A model generated the notes under the pieces. It worked only from the letters and a program-made list of their open reading frames with translations. It ran no database searches and was not told the origin of the DNA. Shown here piece by piece: positions 50,438 through 64,000 of a stretch of 64,000 bases of DNA. The position numbers and the translations under genes are program-made. The stretch comes from Immundisolibacterales bacterium (GTDB lineage: Bacteria; Pseudomonadota; Gammaproteobacteria; HK1). Numbering within the stretch: the first letter of the stretch is position 1; the number at the start of each line of letters is the position of its first letter. The stretch lies in NCBI GenBank assembly GCA_026712715.1, contig JAPOPW010000038.1, positions 124,001 to 188,000 on the forward strand, read 5' to 3'.

Positions 50438-51556
50438 TCAGGAGGGAACCGCCCCCGAAAGTACCATGAACACGTAGGCCTTGACCTTTCGAAGCTGGTC
50501 TCCGGATACGACCAGCTTGACATGATGAATTCCGCGCAGCATGACATATCGACCGGACTTCGCGAAGAGCATGGTCGGTCTCGACACCCAGTCGGCAAGC
50601 GCCGCAAGCTTCTCCGGCACCACGAGCTCTTCGTGGCTCAACGCGTTCAGGAACGGATCCCAGTCCGTGAGGCCGTCGAGCCAGTAGCGTGAATTCTTCG
50701 TATATCTCTGCTTGACGATGAGGGTGAGGCCGAGCGTCGGGCCGATACCCTCGTCGCGCACGTCGATGTTCGCCCCCAACCGGGACACCCTCACGCGTTC
50801 GTCGAAACGCGAGATCACGGACTCGACCGCCGAGGTCCGACCCGGCCAGCCCGTCTTCTCGAGATAGGCGAACAGCTCCTGCTTCGACCCGAAGCCCATG
50901 ATCGCCAATCGGATGGCCCGGGAGCGGGACGGAAACACGCCGAACGAATCCATGCGGGTACCTCCCGGCTGGGCCAGGTAAGCGCGTTCAGCGTTTTCCC
51001 GCTCGGCGACCTTCCTCTCCCACCCTACGCAGCCAACGAGGGCATCCACCACCACACCGACATCGTTCACCTGACCACGGCCGCCGACAATCGGGCGTTC
51101 GCCCGGTCGAAGGAACACTCCCGGGAACGAATGCGTGCGGTCCCGCCCCGAACCGATGTCGAACTCGAGCATCATCTTGCGGCCCACGATATTGCGCAGG
51201 GGCGAGCTCCTGGCATTCATCTGTCCGAACAGTCGAGTGATCGCCGCCGCGGTTTCGTCCGACTCGTGGTTCCGCGCGCGCCCATCGAAGAACGCCACCG
51301 TCCTGGCATCGCTCGAGAGGGAGACACCGAGATCCGCCTCCCGCCGGCGCTCGTGCAGCGGAAACTCGAAACCGAATGGAAGAGCGCCCAACGTGACCGG
51401 AAAGCCCCTCGCGCATTCCAGTATCCGTTCCCACTCCGGGTCCCCGACGAGAATCGGCGAAACCCTGTTTCGAAAGTACCCGAGCAGATCGCCGATGGTG
51501 CCGCCCTCCTCGGCGAGACGGTCCTGGGTAAGTGCCACTGCCGCGTCAGTATCCAT
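50438..51556 (-). CDS. Protein of unknown function, partner of the leader-cyclase fusion
   Basis: A 372-residue soluble protein with no signal peptide. I do not recognise a characterised family. It appears to have two similar halves of alternating strands and helices. The end is a strong candidate for a conserved core: RGIHHVKLVVSGDQLRKVKAYVFMVL. It begins 31 bases after the stop of the leader-cyclase fusion gene, so the two are almost certainly coexpressed. A prenyltransferase-like barrel is one possibility because of the repeated strand-helix pattern and the terpene-cyclase-like neighbour, but no motif proves it. Confidence 0.75.
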   Translation of the reverse strand: MDTDAAVALTQDRLAEEGGTIGDLLGYFRNRVSPILVGDPEWERILECARGFPVTLGALPFGFEFPLHERRREADLGVSLSSDARTVAFFDGRARNHESDETAAAITRLFGQMNARSSPLRNIVGRKMMLEFDIGSGRDRTHSFPGVFLRPGERPIVGGRGQVNDVGVVVDALVGCVGWERKVAERENAERAYLAQPGGTRMDSFGVFPSRSRAIRLAIMGFGSKQELFAYLEKTGWPGRTSAVESVISRFDERVRVSRLGANIDVRDEGIGPTLGLTLIVKQRYTKNSRYWLDGLTDWDPFLNALSHEELVVPEKLAALADWVSRPTMLFAKSGRYVMLRGIHHVKLVVSGDQLRKVKAYVFMVLSGAVPS

Positions 51557-51587: not shown

Positions 51588-52922
51588 TCACGCGTGACGA
51601 TCGGGCCGACTCCTCGAACCCGCCAGCATTCCGGTGAGGCGCTGAAGGGCTTCGATACAGAACGCGGAGGTCACGGATTCGGAACCATGCCCTATCTGCC
51701 CTATCGCGCCCCACCTCAGCGTCTGGTCACCAAAGGCGAGCAGCTCGGGCCAGCTTCCGTCCTCACGTTGCGAATCGACGAGCCTCTCCATTGCGCGCTT
51801 CGCGTCGATGGCTTCAAGTTTCCCGATACCGTGGAGTGCCGAAACCGCCTGAGCGGTCTGAAGGACGTTGCCGAACGCGCCGTGCCCGTCGCGCAGGGCC
51901 AGGATGCGCGCGGCAAGGAACGGGCGCAGATGATCGAGCTCGGGCCGCGAACGGACTATCGCGCGGGCGACCGCATGGCAGATCGTGACCTCATCGGGAT
52001 ACCACTTTGACGAGCCATCGAGACTCCCTTTCGATATCAACGTCTCCAGCCACCGCTGGGCATCCCTGGTTTCCGGGTGGCCGCCAAGAAAGGCAATGAC
52101 GTTCGCATTGACGACGGGATCGGCCTCGATGCGAAAGCTCGTCACGACATCAGGTTCGTCATCTTCCAACACCCAGGTCAAGAAACGACCGTCCTCGTCG
52201 CGATTTGCCAGCACTCGCGGAACGTTCCTTCCGAGCACAATCCAGGGGTGGCTTCCGATGGCAAGCGAACAGAGGGCGGTACTGTCGAGATCCTGGGGCA
52301 GATGGCGATAGTAGCGCCACAGTCCCGGGTACTCCATGGTGTCGGCAAGATATCGCCGGCTGCGTGCGCAGATGGACCCGGCCCGTTCATCATCGCAGCT
52401 CTCGAGAGCGAGCACGCAAAGCGCCGTGACAAACGCAGGCCGTTCGAAGTGTCGCGGAATGTCCGGAGCCCCCAGGTTGAACCGGATGCAGTGCCAGGCC
52501 CCATTCCCGTCGACAGCGGAATCCAGGAAAACGAGACCGCGGTGCATGCTCTCACGCGCCGCTCCTGCAAGGGTCTCCTCCGTCAAGGCGCCCACCCGTT
52601 CCTTCGACCGCATCGGGCCGGGGGATCGAGCCGCCGGTGCGGGATCGTGCATCGTCTTCTTGAGAAACTCGAGCGAGGTTGCACCGTGCTTCGCCGCCTT
52701 GCGTTCCTCCGCGCTGAACTTCTCCATCGGCGGAAGCACGATATGCGTCACGGAATCGGTTTCCTCGTGCACGCGAATCTCATGGTCCCCGGACACCGGA
52801 GATCCGAGCTCGCGTTCGATCGCGTCATTCGGATCCGCAAGGAGGCGCGCACGAAAATCGAGGTCTTCCGCCGCTCTCGCGAGGATGCGGTCCGTGGCGC
52901 CGGGGGCCGCCTTCACCGGCAT
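51588..52922 (-). CDS. NHLP-type leader fused to a terpene-cyclase/prenyltransferase-like helical domain
   Basis: A 444-residue protein with two unlike parts. Residues about 10-80 match an NHLP leader, the nitrile-hydratase-alpha-like leader of some ribosomal peptides: AAEDLDFRARLLADPNDAI, then HEIRVHEETDSVTHIVLPP and an SAEERKAAKHGA tail. NHLP leaders normally end in a double-Gly-like cleavage site; here it reads HG-A at 79-81. Residues about 110-435 look like the helical barrel of squalene cyclases and prenyltransferases: a DLDST motif at 211-215, DPVVNANVIAFLG at 268-280 and a QW-type repeat QREDGSW at 385-391. It follows the NHLM transporter genes by 134 bases. A leader on an enzyme, rather than on a short peptide, is unusual. 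Confidence 0.82.
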   Translation of the reverse strand: MPVKAAPGATDRILARAAEDLDFRARLLADPNDAIERELGSPVSGDHEIRVHEETDSVTHIVLPPMEKFSAEERKAAKHGATSLEFLKKTMHDPAPAARSPGPMRSKERVGALTEETLAGAARESMHRGLVFLDSAVDGNGAWHCIRFNLGAPDIPRHFERPAFVTALCVLALESCDDERAGSICARSRRYLADTMEYPGLWRYYRHLPQDLDSTALCSLAIGSHPWIVLGRNVPRVLANRDEDGRFLTWVLEDDEPDVVTSFRIEADPVVNANVIAFLGGHPETRDAQRWLETLISKGSLDGSSKWYPDEVTICHAVARAIVRSRPELDHLRPFLAARILALRDGHGAFGNVLQTAQAVSALHGIGKLEAIDAKRAMERLVDSQREDGSWPELLAFGDQTLRWGAIGQIGHGSESVTSAFCIEALQRLTGMLAGSRSRPDRHA

Positions 52923-53056: not shown

Positions 53057-55999
53057 TCAGGCGATTTGCCTTCGGACCAGTTCTCTGAATACTCCGTCAA
53101 CTTCCATGAGGTCGGTGAACGAGCCGCTTTGCACGACCCTTCCCGCCTGCATCACGTAAATCCGGTCAGCCTGTTCCAGCGTGGACAGTCGGTGGGCGAT
53201 CACGAGCCGGGTGGAGGTCAGGCGTGCCAGGTTCTGCATGACCTCGGCCTGACTCTCGTTGTCGAGCCAGTTGGTCGCTTCGTCAAGGAGCATGACTCGC
53301 GGGCTGCCGATGAGGGAGCGCGCGATGGTGACGCGCTGGCTCTCGCCACCGGAGACGACCGCCCCGCCGGATCCGACCATCGTCATCATGCCCATGGGCA
53401 TGGCCCTGATCTCGCGCTCGATTCCTGCCGAGCGGGCCGCCTGCCATACTTCCCCGATGCTCGCCTCCTCGTGGTGCGCGACGATATTGTCCCAGAGATC
53501 ATGGGGATGAAGCTGCACCGACTGGGGCACGGCGCCGATTTTCCGGCGCACCTGCTTCAGGTTCAGGTGCCTCAGATCGCGACCGTCGTAATAGACCGCG
53601 CCCGCCGACGGCCGATCGACCCCCAGCGCAAGGCGGAACAGTGTGCTCTTTCCGGCGCCGGACTCTCCGGCAATCGCGACGAATTCACCGGGAGCGGCCC
53701 GAATCGTGACGTCGTCGAGGATCAACGGACCGTCGGGATCGTACCGGAAGGAAACATGGTCGAAGAGAATCTCGCCGCCCAGGCGTTCCACCGTCTCTCC
53801 ACCGCCCTCGGCTTCCGGTACGGCGGCGAGCAAGGGTCGCATCTGCTCGAACGCCGGCACCATGGCGGCGACGGTGCCAAAGGACTCGCCGAGCCGGGCG
53901 ATAGCGGACTGAAAGGCGATGAACACGGCGTAGACGACGAGAAAGTCGCCGACCGGAACACTCCGGTTGCTCACCGCCGCCACCGCCAAGAGAAGCACCC
54001 CAGCGGCAAGAAACGGGAGTGAGGCGCCGAACGCCCGTGCATGACCCTCGAGTGCGCCAAGCTCGAGCTCGGCGCGCTTCTGCTCGCGATAGTGCCGTGC
54101 CCAGATGGCGAAAGCCGAACTCTCCGCATTCTCCACGCGCAGCTTGGCGATGCCGCCCACTACCTGGAACAGGTGGCCGGATACGCGTCGGCTTGCGCTG
54201 ATGATTCGTCCATTGGGTGCTCCCTGGCACAGCCCGATGGCTACGGTCACCAGCAGCGAACCCACGCTGAATGCGAGGGCGATGGCCCCGAGAGCGGCAT
54301 CGTAGAAGAAGATGACACCCAGAACCGGAAGCAGAAAGATGATCGACAACAAGCTGTCGGCCACCACTCCCTGCAGGCCATCGCGAAGATTCTGGAAGGT
54401 CATTCCCGACATGGCCAGATCGCCGGCGGGACGGCGGTGCAGAATCCTCGGTGGAAGACGCATGAGGCGGTCCCAGAAGGCGGCTTCGACCCTTGATGCC
54501 GAGCGACCCTCGAGACGCATCAACGCCGTGCCCTGGAGCAGGTGAAGCAACGCGCCGAGCAGACCGAACCCCGCGAGAGCCGCAACCACGGCATGGAGTG
54601 CATCTGCGCTTCCGCCCGCCACGACGTGATTCGCGACGAATCCAAGGGCGAGCGCCGGAAGCAACCGGGCGAGACCGCCCGGAAGCCCGGCCAATACCAG
54701 TCGTGCCAGATCCGGGGCCGAACCATGCAACGCGATTCCCAGCAGTTCCGCGGGCTTCACGCTTCCTGACGGCAATGGCCGATAGAACACCCACGCATCC
54801 TTCTTCAGCGCACGCGCGCGGTCCGCGGTGATCCGGACCCTGCGCTTGCTGACCGGATCGATCTCCCGGTAGCGTCCGAGCCCGCCCGGCAGGAGGGCAA
54901 CGGGCTGGTCGTCCTCGGCACGAAATGCGAGCATCGCGCCGCTGTCGCCGCGCCACCACCGGTCCTCGACCTCGAGATGCACGCGGCGGCCGCGCACGCA
55001 TGACGCCTCGAGAACGTCAACGATCCCGATTGGAGAATCGGAGAGTCCGGAACGGACCGGAAGCCGGAAGTCGATACCTTGGTGATGTCCGATGATCCGC
55101 AGGGCATCCGCCAGCGCGGTGTCCTCGACATGGGTCTCCCGGTCGACCGGCAGATCGTAGAGATTGAACAGCCGCTGGCGGGCGGCGCTCTCGGCCGTGC
55201 GGCGGCTGGATGTGCGAACGCGTTCGAGATTCGCATCGTCGACCATCGCAAGCCGTCGGTTCAGGCGCTCGAGAGCGAATGCGATCCCGTGAAAGGAGGC
55301 GAGCGCCGACACCAGCGTGCCCTGTTGCGCGAGGGTCCGGGTGGACCTGGTCGAAACGGTCGCGCGGACGGACAGGGAAAGCCAGCTTGTCCGCGTCAGC
55401 GGTATCGCGGCCTGGCGTGGGTCGCCGGTCCCGGCAAGCTCCGCCCGATCGATCATGTCCATGTAAAGGCTCGCGCCGCGCGCCGGTTCGGATATCCAGA
55501 CCACGCCGCGCCCCACGGACAGCGTGCAGGGGGACAGGTCCCGGGTCAGATCGGGCTCGGCCAGCGTGGCCGGTCGCGGACGGCGGTTTACGAAGCGCGA
55601 AAGCGTGTCGGTCACCGCGATCAGCCAGGAATCGACCTGGTCCGCGAGCTCCGCGGGGTCGACTTCGGACAGCAACGATGCCGGAAGGCGCTTCAGGAGG
55701 GTGCCCGGCCGCCCCTTGGCAACCAGGCTCAGCCTGGTGCCCCTTTCTTCGTCCTGTTCATCCGGCGCGACACCGGGCACCAGCCTCCCGGTTTCGCGGC
55801 GCAACAGGTGCTGTGGTGCGGCCACCTCCACCCCGTCCTTGAACTCGAGGAGGAACAGATCCACGGTGCCCTGGTCAATGAACCAGACACTGTCCGTGTC
55901 GTCGAGTCGCACGGGCAGATTGCCGGCGCACGGCACCGATTCTCCGGAGCCGGCGGCAAGCTCGGCCAGCGAAGTGCATTCCCGGCCCGGTTCGTGCAT
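53057..55999 (-). CDS. NHLM-type ABC transporter, second component
   Basis: A 980-residue ABC exporter subunit matching the second transporter of NHLM peptide-export systems. The first 350 residues are a soluble region with a cupin/cyclic-nucleotide-like start (WFIDQGTVDLFLLEF) and no peptidase. Membrane segments occupy about 430-740. The ATPase has Walker A GESGAGKST near residue 778, the signature VSGGESQRV and Walker B VMLLDEATNWLD. It is thought to work with the peptidase-bearing subunit. Its ATG overlaps the upstream stop by one base, which couples translation. Confidence 0.92.
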   Translation of the reverse strand: MHEPGRECTSLAELAAGSGESVPCAGNLPVRLDDTDSVWFIDQGTVDLFLLEFKDGVEVAAPQHLLRRETGRLVPGVAPDEQDEERGTRLSLVAKGRPGTLLKRLPASLLSEVDPAELADQVDSWLIAVTDTLSRFVNRRPRPATLAEPDLTRDLSPCTLSVGRGVVWISEPARGASLYMDMIDRAELAGTGDPRQAAIPLTRTSWLSLSVRATVSTRSTRTLAQQGTLVSALASFHGIAFALERLNRRLAMVDDANLERVRTSSRRTAESAARQRLFNLYDLPVDRETHVEDTALADALRIIGHHQGIDFRLPVRSGLSDSPIGIVDVLEASCVRGRRVHLEVEDRWWRGDSGAMLAFRAEDDQPVALLPGGLGRYREIDPVSKRRVRITADRARALKKDAWVFYRPLPSGSVKPAELLGIALHGSAPDLARLVLAGLPGGLARLLPALALGFVANHVVAGGSADALHAVVAALAGFGLLGALLHLLQGTALMRLEGRSASRVEAAFWDRLMRLPPRILHRRPAGDLAMSGMTFQNLRDGLQGVVADSLLSIIFLLPVLGVIFFYDAALGAIALAFSVGSLLVTVAIGLCQGAPNGRIISASRRVSGHLFQVVGGIAKLRVENAESSAFAIWARHYREQKRAELELGALEGHARAFGASLPFLAAGVLLLAVAAVSNRSVPVGDFLVVYAVFIAFQSAIARLGESFGTVAAMVPAFEQMRPLLAAVPEAEGGGETVERLGGEILFDHVSFRYDPDGPLILDDVTIRAAPGEFVAIAGESGAGKSTLFRLALGVDRPSAGAVYYDGRDLRHLNLKQVRRKIGAVPQSVQLHPHDLWDNIVAHHEEASIGEVWQAARSAGIEREIRAMPMGMMTMVGSGGAVVSGGESQRVTIARSLIGSPRVMLLDEATNWLDNESQAEVMQNLARLTSTRLVIAHRLSTLEQADRIYVMQAGRVVQSGSFTDLMEVDGVFRELVRRQIA

Positions 56000-58230
56000 C
56001 AGCCCGACCTGATCAGCTTGAAATACATACCGTTCCGGTCTTCTATCAGCTCGTCGTGGGTGCCGCGCTGCACTTCGACCCCGTTGTCGAGGACGATGAT
56101 CTGGTCGCAGTCCCGCACGGTGCTCAGCCGGTGCGCCACGATGAGGCAGGTGACGCCGCGACGCCGCACGGCGTCGTCGACGGATTCCTCCGTTCCGGCA
56201 TCGAGGACGCTGGTCGCTTCGTCCAGAATGAGCACGGTCGGATTTCCGACCAGGGCACGGGCGATTTCCAGCCGCTGGCGCTGACCTCCGCTGAAGTTCG
56301 CCCCGCCCTCTTCCACGAAAGCCGAATAGCCTTGCGGCGTGAGAAGGATCCCGTCATGAATGCAGGCGTCTCGCGCCGCCGCGATGATGACTTCATCCGG
56401 AACCGCCGGGTTCCACAATGTGATGTTGTCCCGCACGGATGCCGAAAACAGAACGGCCTCCTGATCCACCGTGGCAATCGAGCGCCGCAGCACCTCCTCG
56501 GGGACCTCGCTCCGCGGATGGCCGTCGAACAGTACCTCGCCCGTCCAGGGCTGGTAGATTCCCGAAACCAAGCGCGCCACGGTGGACTTGCCGGAGCCGC
56601 TCGGTCCCACCACCGCCACCCGTTGCCCCGGTCGGATCACGAGGCTGAAGTCCTTGATCAGCGGCGGCCGGCTCTTGTTGAAACCGAAGGTGACGTTTCT
56701 GAGCTCGAGCTGTCCGGCGAGTTGGAGCCGGCCATCGAACGTGGGAATCGACTCGGTCTCCGGCCTCCGCCGGCTGAAGCCCGGGTCTTCGGTCGCCCCG
56801 GAAATGTCCTCCAGCCGTTGCAGGTCCGTTTCGAGCGCCTGGCGCCGGTCCGCGAACTCGAAGAAGCGCCCGATCGGTGACAGGAACATCTCGGAGAGGA
56901 TGTAGAATCCCGCCAGCGTCCCCAGGGTCATTTCTCCCGAAATGACCATGCTCGCCCCGATGCCCAGGACCGCCGCGCCGCGAAGGGCGGCGATCAACCC
57001 CGGAAGCGCCGTGTTGACCAAGCCGAGCTCCGAGCAGACCTGGCGCGCCTGCAGCTCGCGCGCCTGCTGACCGCTCCAGCGCGAAAAAAACCGGTCATCC
57101 GACCCCGTCATGCGGAGGTTCTCCGCGTGACTCAGCATCTGCATACCGATGCCGATCAGCATGCCCTGCTCGCGCCGCATCGTCTGGCTCCGGACTGCCC
57201 GATGCGCATTGAGGAATTGCGCCAGCAGTCCGTGTAGAACCCCGAGCAGCAGCACGAGCACCGCGAGCAGAAGGTCGTAGAGCATCATCGCGACGAGCAG
57301 GACCGCGCTCATTGCCATGTCTATTACGAGCACCAGAAACTGGTCCGTCAGGTTCCTCGCGATTCGATCGATGGACGAGACCCGATCGGTCAGGTCGCCG
57401 ACCAGCCGGTGGTTGAAGAACTCCACCGGCAACCGCAACAGCCGCGACAGGCTCCGATCATGGCCAATCACCGAAATCCGGACCGCGAGTCTCCGCAGGA
57501 ACCGATGCTTGAGCAAGGACAGGAGGTAGACCAGGATGCCGCCGCCAATCAAGGCCGCCACCAGCCCGCCCCAGGTTCCGTGCGCCTCGAGGACGTTGTC
57601 CACGAAGACGCCAAGAGATGCGGGCACGAGCAATGCCAGCAACGTCGACATGAGCGCGCAGGCGACCGCCGCTCCAAGCACCGTCCATGACCCGCCGAGC
57701 AACGAGTGCAGGCGCGCGAACAACCCGGGTCGCTCGCCGCCGGGCTTGAAGTCGGCGCCTCGCTTGAATCGAAGCGCAACTCCACTGTAGCCCTTGGCGA
57801 ATTCTTCGGCGCTGACCCTGCGTCGCCCCGTCGAGGGATCATTGAGAAAGAAGCTCCGGCCATCGATCCCTTCGACGACCACGAAGTGGCTGAACTGCCA
57901 GAACACGATCAGCGGCAACGCGAGCTTCTCCAACAGATCCGCTCTAACGCCGAGTCCGCTGCACTCGAGGCCGTAGAGCCTCGATGCGCGCACGAGGCTC
58001 GCGGCGCTGCTGCCGTCCCGGCTCACCTCGCACCTCTCGCGCAGCTCGGTAAGCGGCACCCAGCGCCCGAAATAGCCAAGCACGATGCCCAGACAGGCCG
58101 CACCGCACTCCGCCGCGTGCGTCTGCAACAGAATTGGCGTGGTTACCCTTCGCTTCAAGGGCTCCGCCGCCGCCTTGTCGCCGGCCCGATTGGAGGCGCT
58201 CGGCCGCACCTTACGGTCGCCTGGTTCCAA
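55999..58230 (-). CDS. NHLM-type ABC transporter with C39 peptidase domain
   Basis: A 743-residue peptidase-containing exporter. The C39 domain at the N-terminus has Gln36 and Cys42 (LLQTHAAECGAAC), His115 (QFSHFVVVEG) and Asp131 (LNDPSTG), so the protease looks intact. Six membrane segments follow, then an ATPase with GPSGSGKST, FSGGQRQR and VLILDEATSVLD. Such proteins remove double-Gly-type leaders and export the product. The start overlaps the HlyD-like gene by 20 bases. The NHLP-type leader encoded two genes downstream is its likely substrate. Confidence 0.94.
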   Translation of the reverse strand: MEPGDRKVRPSASNRAGDKAAAEPLKRRVTTPILLQTHAAECGAACLGIVLGYFGRWVPLTELRERCEVSRDGSSAASLVRASRLYGLECSGLGVRADLLEKLALPLIVFWQFSHFVVVEGIDGRSFFLNDPSTGRRRVSAEEFAKGYSGVALRFKRGADFKPGGERPGLFARLHSLLGGSWTVLGAAVACALMSTLLALLVPASLGVFVDNVLEAHGTWGGLVAALIGGGILVYLLSLLKHRFLRRLAVRISVIGHDRSLSRLLRLPVEFFNHRLVGDLTDRVSSIDRIARNLTDQFLVLVIDMAMSAVLLVAMMLYDLLLAVLVLLLGVLHGLLAQFLNAHRAVRSQTMRREQGMLIGIGMQMLSHAENLRMTGSDDRFFSRWSGQQARELQARQVCSELGLVNTALPGLIAALRGAAVLGIGASMVISGEMTLGTLAGFYILSEMFLSPIGRFFEFADRRQALETDLQRLEDISGATEDPGFSRRRPETESIPTFDGRLQLAGQLELRNVTFGFNKSRPPLIKDFSLVIRPGQRVAVVGPSGSGKSTVARLVSGIYQPWTGEVLFDGHPRSEVPEEVLRRSIATVDQEAVLFSASVRDNITLWNPAVPDEVIIAAARDACIHDGILLTPQGYSAFVEEGGANFSGGQRQRLEIARALVGNPTVLILDEATSVLDAGTEESVDDAVRRRGVTCLIVAHRLSTVRDCDQIIVLDNGVEVQRGTHDELIEDRNGMYFKLIRSG

Positions 58231-58762
58231 ATAGCGCGATCGGGGCCTGTCTTCCGAGCTCGATGAAGATCCGGGCCTTCCTGTCGGGGAGGGAACCCGG
58301 CTCGAGTCCCTCGTCGAGCGCGATATCGAGGCGGAACACCGACCCCCCGGCCGCGGTCGCGAAGTCCGCCACTCCCCTGGACAGGTTCACCGCGGATATT
58401 GCGGCCACCCTCCCCTCGAGTGTCTCCGGCTTTCCCTCGGCCATCGTCAGGTCGATCGCCGCCGGCATGCCCTCGTCAATTTTCGGCGCAGCGGCGCCCC
58501 TGAGCCAGATGATTGCCCGCACCGTCGGGAAGCCGTCGCCCGGGCCGTCGCGAAGCTCCACGAGCACTCCATCGACGGCAACGCTGCGCGGGACGCTGCC
58601 AACGTACAGCCACCCGGCAAGGACGACCAACAACGATGCGATGCCGACGACCAGAAAGCGCTCTCGAGGTGTGGAAACGGTCAACAGCCCGTCGAGCCGC
58701 TCTCGCTCTTCCTTGGCCGCGGCAACCGTGTCGTGAAACGATCCGAAGGGATTATTGAACAT
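58211..58762 (-). CDS. Truncated HlyD-like membrane-fusion protein (NHLM type)
   Basis: A 183-residue protein. Residues 19-75 match the start of NHLM HlyD proteins: ERERLDGLLTVSTPRERF, a single membrane helix (36-55) and SVPRSVAVDGVLVEL. The later part resembles only the membrane-proximal beta-barrel (RAIIWLRGAAAPKIDEG, VSAVNLS-like). The roughly 200-residue coiled-coil hairpin and lipoyl segments expected of HlyD are missing, and the frame runs through without a visible break. A working short adaptor is possible, because C39 exporters may need contact with the pump but not with TolC. Confidence 0.82.
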   Translation of the reverse strand: MFNNPFGSFHDTVAAAKEERERLDGLLTVSTPRERFLVVGIASLLVVLAGWLYVGSVPRSVAVDGVLVELRDGPGDGFPTVRAIIWLRGAAAPKIDEGMPAAIDLTMAEGKPETLEGRVAAISAVNLSRGVADFATAAGGSVFRLDIALDEGLEPGSLPDRKARIFIELGRQAPIALFGTRRP

Positions 58763-58899: not shown

Positions 58900-61278
58900 T
58901 CATGCCGGGAGCTCGACTTGCGGCCCGGAACGTCGGTCCACCGCGGTCAGCAGGGCGGGCAGAAGCAGCAGATCGGCGACGAGCGCGAAGGCGATGATCA
59001 TTGCCGTCAACACCCCGACCTGCGCGGTCGGAACGAACGGAGAAAACGCGAATATCAGGAAGCCGGCCACCAGCACGACCGTCGTGGCAAGAAGGGCGCG
59101 GCCGGCGGAGTCAAAGGCGTGACGCACCGCCTCTTCGGGACCGTGGCCGTAGTCGCGCCGTGCGAGCTGGTACTTGCTCAGGAAATGCACGGTGTCATCC
59201 ACGACGATACCGATGGTCATTGCCACCACGACAGAAAGCGAGAGCCCGACCTGCCCGACCATCAACCCCCAGATCCCGAACCCCAACACGGCGGGGATCA
59301 GGTTCGGGACGATGCTGATCAAGCCGAGGCGAATTGAACGCAAGGCAAGGAGAAGAACGCCGGAAATGGCCAGGAGCACGACCATCGTCCCGATCAGCAT
59401 GGCGCGGATGTTGCGTTGCCCGATGTAGGCGAACAATGCCGCCGGACCGGTGCTGTTGACACTGGCAACATGCGGCGCGTTTTCTTTCAGCCAGGCTTCG
59501 GCACGCGCGTTCAGCGCGAGCAGCTCTTGCGAGTCGAGGGTCTTCGCCGAGATCGTTACCCGCGTCGCGGATCTGGACCGATCGATCTGATTGTTCAGGT
59601 TCAGACCTTGAGGAAGGGATAGCTCGTAAAGGAGCAGGTATTGCGCCGCCAGCTCCCGACTCTCGGGAATGCGGTACGAAGCCTCGTCGTCGCCATGCAT
59701 GCTCTTGTTGATCTGCCTGAAGGTATCGCTGATGACCGCCACGTGCCGTACGGGAGGCTGCTCACGGTACCATTCGGCGAAACTCGAGACCTCGGCGAGA
59801 AAATCGGGATCGGTGACGCCGCCCTCGGTGGACGCTTCAAGCGAGTACTCGAGCAGGGTGTTGCCGCTCAAGCGCTCATCCATGAAGTCCGTGTCCTGGC
59901 GAAACTCCACGCTCTCGTCGAAGAAGTGAACCAGAACGTCGTTGAGCTCGTTGCGCGGAATGGCAAGGGCCATCGCCAGCACTACGGCCAGCCACCCCCA
60001 GATCAGCGGCCTTCGGTTGCGCAGCACGAAGTCCGCCACGAGCACCATCGTGGGTCCGCGGAGCCGGCGATCCCTTGGCGTGCGAATCGGGAGTAGTGAC
60101 AGCAGGGCCGGCAGGAACGTGACGGAAAGAACGAAGGAAGCAACGATGCCGATTGCGACGAAGTTGCCCAGGTGGCGGTAGGGCGGAACTTCCGAGAAAT
60201 TCATGCTCAGGAACCCCAGCGCGGTCGTGAGGCTCGCCAGGAACACCGGGTACAGGTTGAGCCTGACGGACTCGACGATGGCGTCGTGCCGCGTATCCCC
60301 TTCACGCATGCGCTGCTGCAAGGTCACCAGCAGGTGGACGCAGTTCGCCACGACGATCATCAACACGATGGTCGGAGCCGGCGAGATGGGTGGGGAAAAC
60401 GGCAAGCCGATCCATGCGCCCAGGCCCACGGACACGAGAATGGAACAGACGATGACCGTGCCGGTCGCGACGACCCCCGGCCAGCCACGGGTAACCAGGC
60501 CAAGGACCAGCGCCATGAGCAGAAGGCTTGCGGGCAGGAAGACAATCTGGCTGTCGATCGAAGCCTCGACGAAGGTCTGGTTGACCATCGTCGTACCGAC
60601 GATGCGAACGTCCAGGTCGGGGAATCGCTCTTCGGTCTCGGCGGCAAGCGACCTGGCGAACTCGGCAACTTCGGCGACCGCCTCCAGCAGACCCTCCTCC
60701 GGCAGCTCGACGGTGACATTCACGACGCTGACATCGCCGTCCCTGGCCACAATGCTGCCCTCGATGCGAGGGTCGGACAATGCGACGGCACGAATTCGCG
60801 CGCGCGCTTCGTCCCGGTCCAGCTCTTCGGGACTGACGAGATCGCGCACATGCAGCTCGTCGCCGTCCGCCGTCGTGTATTGAAAATTGGCGAGCGAGTC
60901 GACGCGCCTGGAATACGGCGTGTGCCAAGCGGCCTCCGTGAGCCAGACGGATGCCCCGAGCGCAGTCTGCGACGTGGCGTCGCCGTCATCCGGAACGATC
61001 AGGAACGCGACGTTCTCGTTCTTCCCGTAGGTATTCTCCAGCGCTTCCAGGGCGAGAAGCTGCGGATTGTCCTCGTCGAAGAAGATTCGGTAATTGGCCG
61101 AGAACTCGAGAAAGGCAATCCCGGACGACGCGACGGCAACCAACAGCAGCATTGCCGTGATGACCGGCCAGCGGGCCGAGAGCATCCGTTCGGCAAAACG
61201 CGCGGAGAATTGCTCTCCCGCTATGCCGCGCTGGTGCACAGTGCCGGAGTCACGGTTCTTGTACGACCACAGGGGCAA
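58900..61278 (-). CDS. RND/MMPL-family exporter (HAE3-like)
   Basis: A 792-residue protein with two matching halves, each with a periplasmic domain and several membrane segments. The second half has GIVVDDTVHFLSKYQ, typical of the MMPL/HAE3 group, and the first has VVANCVHLLVTLQQ at the same place. It is shorter than AcrB-type pumps and usually moves lipids, sterols, pigments or similar hydrophobic compounds. It sits between the halogenase-like gene and the NHLM export genes. Several ATG and TTG codons before residue 40 make the exact start uncertain. Confidence 0.9.
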   Translation of the reverse strand: MPLWSYKNRDSGTVHQRGIAGEQFSARFAERMLSARWPVITAMLLLVAVASSGIAFLEFSANYRIFFDEDNPQLLALEALENTYGKNENVAFLIVPDDGDATSQTALGASVWLTEAAWHTPYSRRVDSLANFQYTTADGDELHVRDLVSPEELDRDEARARIRAVALSDPRIEGSIVARDGDVSVVNVTVELPEEGLLEAVAEVAEFARSLAAETEERFPDLDVRIVGTTMVNQTFVEASIDSQIVFLPASLLLMALVLGLVTRGWPGVVATGTVIVCSILVSVGLGAWIGLPFSPPISPAPTIVLMIVVANCVHLLVTLQQRMREGDTRHDAIVESVRLNLYPVFLASLTTALGFLSMNFSEVPPYRHLGNFVAIGIVASFVLSVTFLPALLSLLPIRTPRDRRLRGPTMVLVADFVLRNRRPLIWGWLAVVLAMALAIPRNELNDVLVHFFDESVEFRQDTDFMDERLSGNTLLEYSLEASTEGGVTDPDFLAEVSSFAEWYREQPPVRHVAVISDTFRQINKSMHGDDEASYRIPESRELAAQYLLLYELSLPQGLNLNNQIDRSRSATRVTISAKTLDSQELLALNARAEAWLKENAPHVASVNSTGPAALFAYIGQRNIRAMLIGTMVVLLAISGVLLLALRSIRLGLISIVPNLIPAVLGFGIWGLMVGQVGLSLSVVVAMTIGIVVDDTVHFLSKYQLARRDYGHGPEEAVRHAFDSAGRALLATTVVLVAGFLIFAFSPFVPTAQVGVLTAMIIAFALVADLLLLPALLTAVDRRSGPQVELPA

Positions 61279-61669: not shown

Positions 61670-62944
61670 CTAGTATCCAAGACCCTGAGACATCTGGGCA
61701 TAGCTGGTGAGAGGAACCGCGCACATCCGGTTCCAGTCCGACCTGTCGATGACCGGCCGTTTCAGCAGCTCGATCATTGCATTGAACTTCTCGAGCGCGG
61801 AGCAGCCCACCACCTCCGGATCGGCGGCCGCACGGTGCCGCGGCCAGGCGTGGTGCCGCGCGTAACGCCAGAACTCGCTGTCGTACCGGGATCCGCAGGA
61901 ATAGTGCCAGCCGACGAACAGTCCGTAGCAGAGCATGCTTCCGACCAGGAACCGATTGACCACCGGGGCATCGCTATCGAGGTTCTTCACCGAACGGTTG
62001 AGGCGCATGTGGAGAATCATGCCGATCTGGAGCTGGGCGGACACGATCGCCGTAGCTTCGAGGGGTTCCATGAACGCCGCTGCGTTGCCAACACGCGCCA
62101 CCGCGCCATCGAAGATTCGACGTTGCACGAAATTGGGAAACGGAACGGTGGCGCGCGGCTCGAATTCCCTGACGCCGTCGGCTTCCAGGAATGCATCGAA
62201 GTCCGATTCGACCTCGGCGAGGCTGGATACATCGCGGTTGAAGATGTACCCGTAGGAAGTATGCACGGCAAGCGGAATGACGAAAATCCAGCCGTGCGGA
62301 CGCGCAACTGCCCGCGTATAGGTATGCTGCACCAGGGTCCGGTTCTTTTCGCCCCCGACTATTGGCGGGCAGCGTCGGATGACGGCGGTATTCGTGGGAA
62401 TGAAGGAAATGTCGATGTGCCGGTCGGGATCGAGCTTTGCCGGAAACCCGCGGGCATCGAAGACCAGGTCATACCGTTCCGACGCCCGGCCCTCGAATTC
62501 CACTTGCGCCCCGCCCTGCACCCTCGTGATATCCAGCACCTTCGCATCGATGTGGCGCGCGCGCGTGCTCTCCTGAAGCAGGCCGGCCAGACAATCGGCG
62601 GACAGGTGGTAGGCGTAGGACACCTGTTGGGGTGTGAAGTAGTGGGTGAAGCGCCAATTGCGCCGACCCCATCCTTCGAATGCAACACCGTACTTGCGCG
62701 TCCCCTCCAGGCGCTGCTGAATGGTCTCGTGGGGAAGCTTGGTCAGTTTGTGGAGCTCCTGAACCAGGCTCGGCCAGCTACCCTCGCCCACTCCGATTAC
62801 CGGGATGCGCGAGTCATAGATGTGGTGCAGCTCGTGGTCGCGGTCAGGGAGAAGACGCGTTACGCTGGCGGCGGCAATGGAACCTGCGGTCCCCCGCCCG
62901 ACCACCGCGATCTTCCGCAAGGACTCGCTGCCCGGCAGGATCAT
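61670..62944 (-). CDS. Flavin-dependent tryptophan-halogenase-like protein
   Basis: A 424-residue flavoprotein related to tryptophan halogenases. FAD binding appears as GRGTAG (16-21) and GVGEGSWPSL. Lys84 (TRKYGVAFEGW) and Glu296 (FMEPLEATAI) match the catalytic Lys79 and Glu346 of PrnA. The diagnostic W-x-W-x-I-P is altered: GWIFVIP keeps the first Trp and the Ile-Pro, but the second Trp is Phe221. It is about 100 residues shorter than PrnA, mainly before residue 200. Halogenation is plausible but not assured; another FAD-dependent oxidation is the alternative. It is encoded beside an exporter and an outer-membrane protein. Confidence 0.82.
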   Translation of the reverse strand: MILPGSESLRKIAVVGRGTAGSIAAASVTRLLPDRDHELHHIYDSRIPVIGVGEGSWPSLVQELHKLTKLPHETIQQRLEGTRKYGVAFEGWGRRNWRFTHYFTPQQVSYAYHLSADCLAGLLQESTRARHIDAKVLDITRVQGGAQVEFEGRASERYDLVFDARGFPAKLDPDRHIDISFIPTNTAVIRRCPPIVGGEKNRTLVQHTYTRAVARPHGWIFVIPLAVHTSYGYIFNRDVSSLAEVESDFDAFLEADGVREFEPRATVPFPNFVQRRIFDGAVARVGNAAAFMEPLEATAIVSAQLQIGMILHMRLNRSVKNLDSDAPVVNRFLVGSMLCYGLFVGWHYSCGSRYDSEFWRYARHHAWPRHRAAADPEVVGCSALEKFNAMIELLKRPVIDRSDWNRMCAVPLTSYAQMSQGLGY

Positions 62945-63032: not shown

Positions 63033-64000
63033 TCAGAAGCTGAACGTGAAATCAACGCCGAGGAAGCTGTCGCGCCGGCCGCCGTAGGTCGGGTCCCTCG
63101 GGTCCGAGCTCAGAGTCGCGCTCGCTTCCAGGCGCAACAGCCAGCGATTCGAAAGGCGGCGCCTGAGCTCCAGGTTCAACGCGCGGTATTCGTGGCGGAG
63201 GTCCCCCAGGAGGCCCGCCACGATCTCGGTTCCCGGCAGATCGTTCAACGCGAGGACGCCCGCGGCATACACGTCGTTCGCCCTGACATTGGTGGCACGG
63301 CGCCCGCGGCCATCGAAGTGCCACTCCGCGAAGGCGGTCAAGTCCGCGCGGGTTCCGAACACGCCATAGAGAGTGCGCTCGAAGCCGAAGATTACTGCGC
63401 AGAAATCCTCCTCTTCGCCCAGGAGATTGCGCGATCCGCCGCGGCACATGCCTTCCGTCTTGTAGAGCCAGGGCTCGGTCGTGAGCTGTGCGTCGATCCC
63501 GAGCTGCCATATCTGCTCGTAGTACGGGGTCAACGGCGCTTCGACGGCCGGGGACCGCTCGGAATGGTGGCCGAAGAGAAACAACGGTTCGCGGCTCGTT
63601 CCGGCAAAGGCGCTCACGCCGAAATCGAGCAATCCCACGGCGTTGCCGTAGCGAGCCGCGAGATCCACATGGCGCTCCTTCGCACCGCTCTCGTACCGGG
63701 GGTTCTCATCGATCGGCCGGCCGGACCGGTGCCGCCCGGATTGCCCGGGAAACGTTCGCTTGCGATGAAACGGTAGAACAAGCGTCTCGGCAATGCCCCA
63801 ATCGCCGCCAATCGTCAGACGCGCCATGGGCTGGCCCAGCTTCGGCCGATCCCGCGGATGCGCCACGAGGTCCGATTGATTGACGATGTCCACGAGGTTG
63901 TCGAGCTCGGCCACACCCCAGAAAACGCGATCGACACCCAGCCGAAGCTCCCAGGAATTCTCGCCCCAGTCTCCATGCATCAAGACGTAGGCCTCGCGCA
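63033..64000 (-). CDS. Outer-membrane beta-barrel protein (DUF1302/porin-like), N-terminus outside the window
   Basis: The 3' part of a gene that continues past position 64000. Visible residues start ELRLGVDRVFWGVAELDNLVDIVNQSD after a short leader, a stretch typical of DUF1302-type outer-membrane proteins (strand, then VFWG and DN). Alternating hydrophobic and polar strands continue, with acidic and aromatic loops, and the protein ends in GVDFTFSF, whose terminal Phe is the usual signal for outer-membrane assembly. Such proteins accompany RND/MMPL exporters in many lipid or pigment export clusters. The stop lies 88 bases before the halogenase-like gene. Confidence 0.75.
   Translation of the reverse strand, partial: REAYVLMHGDWGENSWELRLGVDRVFWGVAELDNLVDIVNQSDLVAHPRDRPKLGQPMARLTIGGDWGIAETLVLPFHRKRTFPGQSGRHRSGRPIDENPRYESGAKERHVDLAARYGNAVGLLDFGVSAFAGTSREPLFLFGHHSERSPAVEAPLTPYYEQIWQLGIDAQLTTEPWLYKTEGMCRGGSRNLLGEEEDFCAVIFGFERTLYGVFGTRADLTAFAEWHFDGRGRRATNVRANDVYAAGVLALNDLPGTEIVAGLLGDLRHEYRALNLELRRRLSNRWLLRLEASATLSSDPRDPTYGGRRDSFLGVDFTFSF

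Follow-up and report, generated by a model that had tools for sequence, protein, structure and literature searches.

Sponge microbiomes are reported to contain srp proteusin clusters widely, with a precursor, SrpE, whose core is LCCCW (PMC10858898; PMC10286304). In the srp prototype, thiazolines are formed by SrpC and the tryptophan is brominated at position 6 by SrpI, an enzyme that requires an LxxxxL motif (PMC10858898). MprC, a YcaO enzyme that in addition makes contact with the folded nucleus, requires the same motif (PMC12455567). A second group of closely related systems is represented by NctPC and ChrPC, two RiPP enzymes which prenylate a tryptophan and then cyclise the attached chain (PMC13290415; the source for both enzymes is Hubrich et al. 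2024, Chem, cited in PMC12715784).

The window analysed here is a stretch of 64,000 nucleotides that corresponds to C9:124001-188000 of the source genome. A separate NHLP precursor, whose sequence ends in ...NITEEQLEAISAG-LCCCW, was found at C9:189347-189568, approximately 1.3 kb beyond the window and with approximately 0.5 kb left to the end of the contig. This LCCCW precursor of 83 aa (C9:189329-189580, equivalent to window positions 65329-65580) scored 60.9 bits against the leader family TIGR03793, over the curated cut-off of 50.9 bits, and all of the 18 tabulated precursors were found to end in LCCCW. The original prediction had noted the absence of a separate short precursor from the cluster, which is correct inside the window but not for the cluster overall, as the precursor only seemed to be missing because the window edge had cut it off. 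An SrpI-type flavin-dependent tryptophan halogenase is encoded at 61670-62944 on the minus strand (Trp_halogenase, E 2e-43), in which K84, Y102, the PQQVS stretch at 105-109 and Y110 occupy the positions published for SrpI (PMC10858898; PMC10286304). The LCCCW core together with these SrpI hallmarks identify the cluster as the known srp proteusin cluster, and from these sequence features we conclude that most of an srp cluster is contained in the window. The genomic context originally proposed is therefore refined to that of a cluster already described.

The YcaO gene, which corresponds to SrpC, is located near a contig end on another contig (C64, locus L053) of the source genome. In genome G001 (locus L051) and in other loci this gene is contiguous with the cluster, and G001 has the YcaO and prenyltransferase genes side by side with the fused gene and a desaturase-like gene, all on one strand. 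The protein adjoining YcaO has approximately 800-870 aa and combines a fatty-acid-desaturase/hydroxylase-like part with a second part that matches GlnE weakly (L018 11366-13762 and L053 4020-6629); this protein may oxidise the srp product. Two weak NHLP matches observed on contig C50 (L007 9635-10393) belong to a true nitrile hydratase alpha subunit (PF02979, E 4e-75), and were for this reason rejected as a RiPP precursor.

The other genes annotated in this part of the window are all encoded on the minus strand. They comprise NHLM ABC transporter 2 (53057-55999; TIGR03797 677 bits, cut-off 709), NHLM ABC transporter 1 with a C39 peptidase (55999-58230; TIGR03796 821 bits, cut-off 853; Peptidase_C39 E 3.6e-33), an MMPL/HpnN-like RND transporter (58900-61278) and an outer-membrane beta-barrel-like protein with weak matches to DUF1302/Porin_4 (63033-64000), which continues past the window. 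A LolA-like gene was found beyond the window end at the equivalent of 64262-65185. A short HlyD-like protein of 183 aa (58211-58762; TIGR03794 E 6e-6, positions 6-54 of 421) was also observed, with homologues of the same length in most other srp loci.

The fused gene occupies positions 51588-52922 on the minus strand, a strand that had not been given before, and encodes an NHLP-class II terpene cyclase fusion of 444 aa without an internal stop. The proposal of an NHLP leader and a terpene-cyclase-like enzyme in one unbroken frame was confirmed for this 444-aa protein by the TIGR03793 match and by the cyclase fold. Both parts were found in one chain in 22 other genomes, in loci from several phyla where the gene is likewise in frame (23/23) and the orthologues share 56-71% identity across the full length. 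The records carrying the fused gene are labelled Gammaproteobacteria, Nitrospira, Nitrospirales, Nitrospinota/Nitrospinae, Bryobacterales or unclassified bacterium, and several of the MAG series are presumably of sponge origin, a point on which the record titles are silent. An assembly or frameshift error is ruled out by the 22 independent in-frame orthologues, which together with the TIGR03793 matches in all 23 proteins exclude a chance join as well. The possibility that the frame holds two genes, the second starting internally, was rejected since the linker methionine occurs only in the window copy and the orthologues read through without a methionine there.

The N-terminal part of the protein consists of an NHLP leader-like domain (residues 10-80; 52683-52895, minus strand), a conserved stretch that follows the old cleavage site and has the consensus AASLEFLxKTMHDPAPPxR (residues 81-99; 52626-52682, minus strand) and an unconstrained linker in which in-frame indels occur among the orthologues (residues 100-112; 52587-52625, minus strand). 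Residues 11-68 match TIGR03793 with an E value of 4.4e-10 and 39.3 bits, which is under the curated cut-off. All of the 23 fused orthologues match this family (best E 3.2e-13) and five of the orthologous fused leaders lie above the cut-off with 51.8-53.1 bits, while the leader profile also matches nitrile hydratase alpha and the structure 8tb1 of the MprE7 leader. Over the 23 genes, the median dN/dS (Nei-Gojobori) was 0.28 in the leader and 0.155 in the cyclase, with 0.15 in the segment of residues 81-99 and 0.90 in the linker. Purifying selection acts on the leader and the linker is nearly neutral, and a docking module would be expected to look like this, with a domain that is maintained while its tether is free. 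The segment of residues 81-99 was observed to be under a constraint equal to that of the cyclase core.

The nucleus signature VHE...TH.VLPP is retained in the fused leaders. At position -7, arginine is found in all of the fused proteins (23/23) whereas leucine occurs in the 18 srp precursors and in 26 precursors of unfused clusters; at position -4 isoleucine or valine is replaced by alanine, also in 23/23, and at position -2 glycine or alanine is mostly replaced by threonine, with G80 at the old cleavage site being invariant. The LxxxxL recognition motif, the hydrophobic residue at -4 and the GG/AG cleavage site are absent from all 23 fused leaders. The match to TIGR03793 ends at model position 61-73 of 77, and the short core expected after a leader is absent from the fused protein, where approximately 330 aa of cyclase are found instead. 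The drift of the cleavage site to HG-A that had been remarked upon is real and extends further, to the arginine at -7 and the alanine at -4. With the LxxxxL, -4 and -2 features lost, the fused protein is not expected to be exported, cleaved or modified, and the loss of LxxxxL with the nucleus kept speaks for binding via the folded nucleus. Residues 53-90 of the fused leader have low confidence in the AlphaFold2 model. In a tree of NHLP sequences (81 columns, long branches) the fused leaders form a single clade with support of 100/99, which fits a single fusion event. The idea that the srp precursor itself had recently been fused was rejected, as the fused clade stands apart from both the srp precursors and the precursors of unfused clusters in this same tree of 81 columns and long branches.

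The C-terminal part (residues 113-430; 51633-52586, minus strand) is predicted to form the alpha/alpha toroid of a class II terpene cyclase. Its match to the squalene-hopene cyclase family PF13243 is weak but real (E 1e-5), and a profile built from fused and unfused relatives matches drimenol synthase with E 4.2e-9. The AlphaFold2 model of the fused protein (alignment A1) contains the toroid with mostly high confidence. When this predicted model was compared with known structures by VIA-align, the closest was the drimenol synthase AsDMS (9m7f; Z 30.2, rmsd 2.5 over 282 residues), followed by MstE (6sbd; Z 26.7, rmsd 3.4 over 303 residues) and squalene-hopene cyclase (Z 25.8). Terpene cyclases gave Z scores of 21-30 compared to 18-19 for unrelated toroids, and a generic toroid such as an epimerase or glycosidase was rejected on this ground. 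The two motifs named in the original prediction were located at residues 211-215 (DLDST; 52278-52292, minus strand) and 385-391 (QREDGSW; 51750-51770, minus strand), the latter matching the QW repeats of squalene-hopene cyclase. DLDST aligns with DLDTT of wild-type AsDMS and with DLNTT of its D333N mutant, which puts D213 at the position of AsDMS D333. The acid motif reads DLDS(T/S) in the fused proteins with the central aspartate invariant, and both aspartates are invariant across the relatives, fused and unfused alike, where DxDD or DxDS occurs throughout; two relatives have the full DxDD (DLDDT and DTDDT). Identity to characterised cyclases is approximately 20%. On the basis of the model, the C-terminal part is assigned a class II terpene cyclase fold with an acid motif.

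Adjacent to the fused gene lies a gene for a 372-aa protein (50438-51556, minus strand) that had been omitted from the original prediction and is added here as the probable ABBA (PT-barrel) aromatic prenyltransferase partner of the cyclase. No family match was obtained for this protein in Pfam, NCBIfam, PDB sequences or profile searches, and the reading as a prenyltransferase rests on the fold because the sequence profile searches were empty. The AlphaFold2 model (pLDDT 80) consists of repeated units of two helices and two strands and resembles MpnD (4yl7) with Z 16.4 over 314 residues. Further fold matches include the indole/tryptophan prenyltransferases CymD and DMATS1 as well as LimF (Z 12.4), and all of the 50 matches listed are aromatic or peptide prenyltransferases; the Foldseek match was moderate, with a TM of about 0.5.

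The prenyltransferase and cyclase families were both present in 17 of the 17 srp genomes searched. Within the family of the window, the prenyltransferase was found in seven of seven genomes with the cyclase compared to one of ten without it (Fisher p 4e-4, uncorrected for the relatedness of these genomes), and among 369 genomes of the class the cyclase occurs in only two, both of which carry the prenyltransferase. The cyclase was thus never found without the prenyltransferase family in the srp, family and class genome sets searched. A single chain containing both enzymes, as in NctPC, was not found in the loci examined, all of which have separate genes.

Unfused cyclases were found in six cases (G002, G013, G015, G016, G084 and L074), with separate NHLP precursors in the same locus. 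The precursor cores of these loci contain tryptophan, often as the terminal residue, and those near the unfused pairs include SNDDFDASGW, AVPTSGGW, VCWSNCSDMGP and Trp-rich sets. Prenyltransferase clusters without a cyclase have cores such as LCCC, RCCC, WCCCGN or a sequence with an internal tryptophan. The comparison of cores indicates that every cyclase-bearing cluster has a core tryptophan while the prenyltransferase alone does not depend on one, and the LCCC and RCCC cores of two paralogous prenyltransferase clusters imply that tryptophan need not be the acceptor.

Several of the related loci differ in their gene content. Three of them (L046 in G015, L047 in G002 and L048 in G013) were observed to be combinatorial-looking RiPP loci with arrays of 6 to approximately 12 NHLP precursors having Trp-rich and often Trp-ending cores, several prenyltransferase copies and one unfused cyclase, together with a cupin-like gene in L047. 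The srp-like clusters with LCCC and RCCC cores (L072 2869-3150 and L073 9033-9350) contain YcaO, prenyltransferase and MMPL genes, and both the halogenase and the cyclase are absent from the stretch read; such natural variants could reveal the contribution of each enzyme. In L075 (5140-7659, G254), an 839-aa protein with two internal NHLP-like stretches adjoins a distant prenyltransferase homologue and is a possible further NHLP fusion.

We favour a reading, with a probability of roughly 0.55, in which two enzymes would equip the srp core with a cyclised isoprenoid and the fused leader would be a docking domain instead of an export signal. As described for the srp prototype, the YcaO enzyme would introduce thiazolines into the LCCCW precursor and SrpI would brominate the core tryptophan. 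The ABBA prenyltransferase would add an isoprenoid to this core, probably at the tryptophan or close to it, and the cyclase, judging by its fold and motif, would protonate the chain via D213 and fold it into rings. The NHLP domain on its free linker would serve as a folded nucleus that docks on the prenyltransferase, the YcaO enzyme or the precursor, where it would let the cyclase act within the same assembly. The fused NHLP domain would be neither cleaved nor exported because its recognition helix has been rewritten, and the terpenoid peptide would be exported by the HpnN-like RND, LolA-like and outer-membrane gene products. Recruitment of the cyclase by the leader, as suggested originally, is still the best idea in view of the selection on the leader and the neutral linker. 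Against docking stands the fact that SrpI binds mainly through LxxxxL, which is missing from the fused domain. The fusion as a gene and the enzyme assignment are well supported, the two-enzyme pathway reading of the cluster moderately, and the role of the fused leader as a docking domain only inferentially.

The single origin of the fusion, the permanent attachment of the NHLP domain and the conservation of the leader and the post-glycine segment next to a free linker could also be accounted for by a leader that acts in cis and either activates its own cyclase or positions a leaderless core. Engineered leader-fused RiPP enzymes are precedents for such an arrangement. We consider this unlikely, as the standalone cyclases lack an NHLP domain and are presumably active beside intact precursors, and the free linker suits docking in trans equally well. 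The original prediction had further suggested that the leader may send the enzyme to the C39 exporter; in such a reading the cyclase would be secreted or clipped by way of the C39/NHLM exporter. The position of the fused gene directly behind two NHLM transporter genes and the invariance of G80 agree with this, but the loss of LxxxxL, the -4 residue and GG in 23/23, the substitutions at -7 (Leu to Arg), -4 (Ile/Val to Ala) and -2 (mostly Thr) and the premature end of the TIGR03793 match make it highly improbable.

The order of the two reactions could also be reversed. In this case the cyclase would start from a free isoprenyl diphosphate, in the way that drimenol synthase uses FPP, the cyclic unit would be transferred afterwards by the prenyltransferase, and the NHLP domain would only hold the enzymes together. 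The closest structure, drimenol synthase, was solved with FPP, which is in favour of this order; nevertheless it appears rather unlikely to us as the HAD phosphatase domain is missing, the single-domain build is that of MstE, which acts on aryl-bound prenyl chains, and NctPC and ChrPC prenylate tryptophan before cyclising. A toroid that is not catalytic at all, and is instead a structural or regulatory lipid-binding part of a complex, would explain the replacement of DxDD by DxDS and the identity of only about 20% to characterised cyclases. This is quite improbable given that both aspartates are invariant among the fused and unfused relatives, the QW motif is kept and the dN/dS is 0.155, and that drimenol synthase is active although its DxDTT also departs from DxDD.

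With the favoured reading of a docked cyclase acting after the prenyltransferase, the cluster content suggests a brominated peptide that bears a ring-shaped terpene. More tentatively, at a little under an even chance, we propose a leader-on-enzyme design in which a RiPP leader has moved from the substrate to a tailoring enzyme as a docking module, within a widespread pathway of sponge microbiomes whose product would be a pentapeptide that is brominated, bears thiazolines and carries a polycyclic terpenoid. With a prenyltransferase and a class II terpene cyclase in srp, the predicted product would no longer be a brominated peptide but a brominated peptide-terpenoid hybrid with a mass that is searchable in sponge extracts, and an orphan prenyltransferase family without a current family model would gain a function. 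The calculated monoisotopic mass of the core LCCCW is 626.20 Da, which becomes 572.17 with three thiazolines, 650.08 after bromination as well, and 854.27 or 922.33 when C15H24 or C20H32 is added to this; cyclisation would leave the mass unchanged. A RiPP leader domain as an enzyme docking part is in addition a testable case that would be useful for engineering RiPP enzyme assembly.

Nothing was found in the literature searched on an enzyme that carries a leader domain, on the final srp product, on a proteusin combined with a prenyltransferase and a terpene cyclase or, with the original 2021 srp paper being outside the coverage, on terpenoid genes or chemistry in srp. Compared with the known systems, the locus agrees with the srp proteusin cluster (Nguyen et al. 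2021, JACS) in its LCCCW core on an NHLP leader, its SrpI brominase residues, its YcaO gene and its distribution over many bacterial taxa, whereas the published srp accounts searched cover SrpC, SrpE and SrpI only and mention neither a prenyltransferase nor a terpene cyclase nor a leader-fused enzyme. PalX/PalQ of Paenibacillus alvei likewise pairs an NHLP precursor having a C-terminal tryptophan with a prenyltransferase, but PalQ has an isoprenoid-synthase fold and both the cyclase and the fused leader are absent.

The cyclase itself is similar to MstE, the monodomain class II terpene cyclase of Scytonema, in being a single toroid, and MstE was solved with a prenyl chain on an aromatic ring; its substrate, however, is a small molecule and it has no NHLP domain. 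AsDMS is the closest structure, with its DLDTT aligned with DLDST, but differs in its N-terminal HAD domain and was solved with FPP. The statement that no system of this kind has been characterised holds for the enzyme-borne leader, of which none was found in the literature, but not for isoprenoid-cyclising RiPP enzymes, since NctPC and ChrPC have been reported. NctPC (ABBA) and ChrPC (trans-IDS-like) also combine a prenyltransferase and a cyclase acting on a peptide tryptophan, and the cyclase domain of NctPC resembles MstE. In those enzymes the two activities reside in one chain, whereas here each has a gene of its own and it is the cyclase that carries an NHLP domain.
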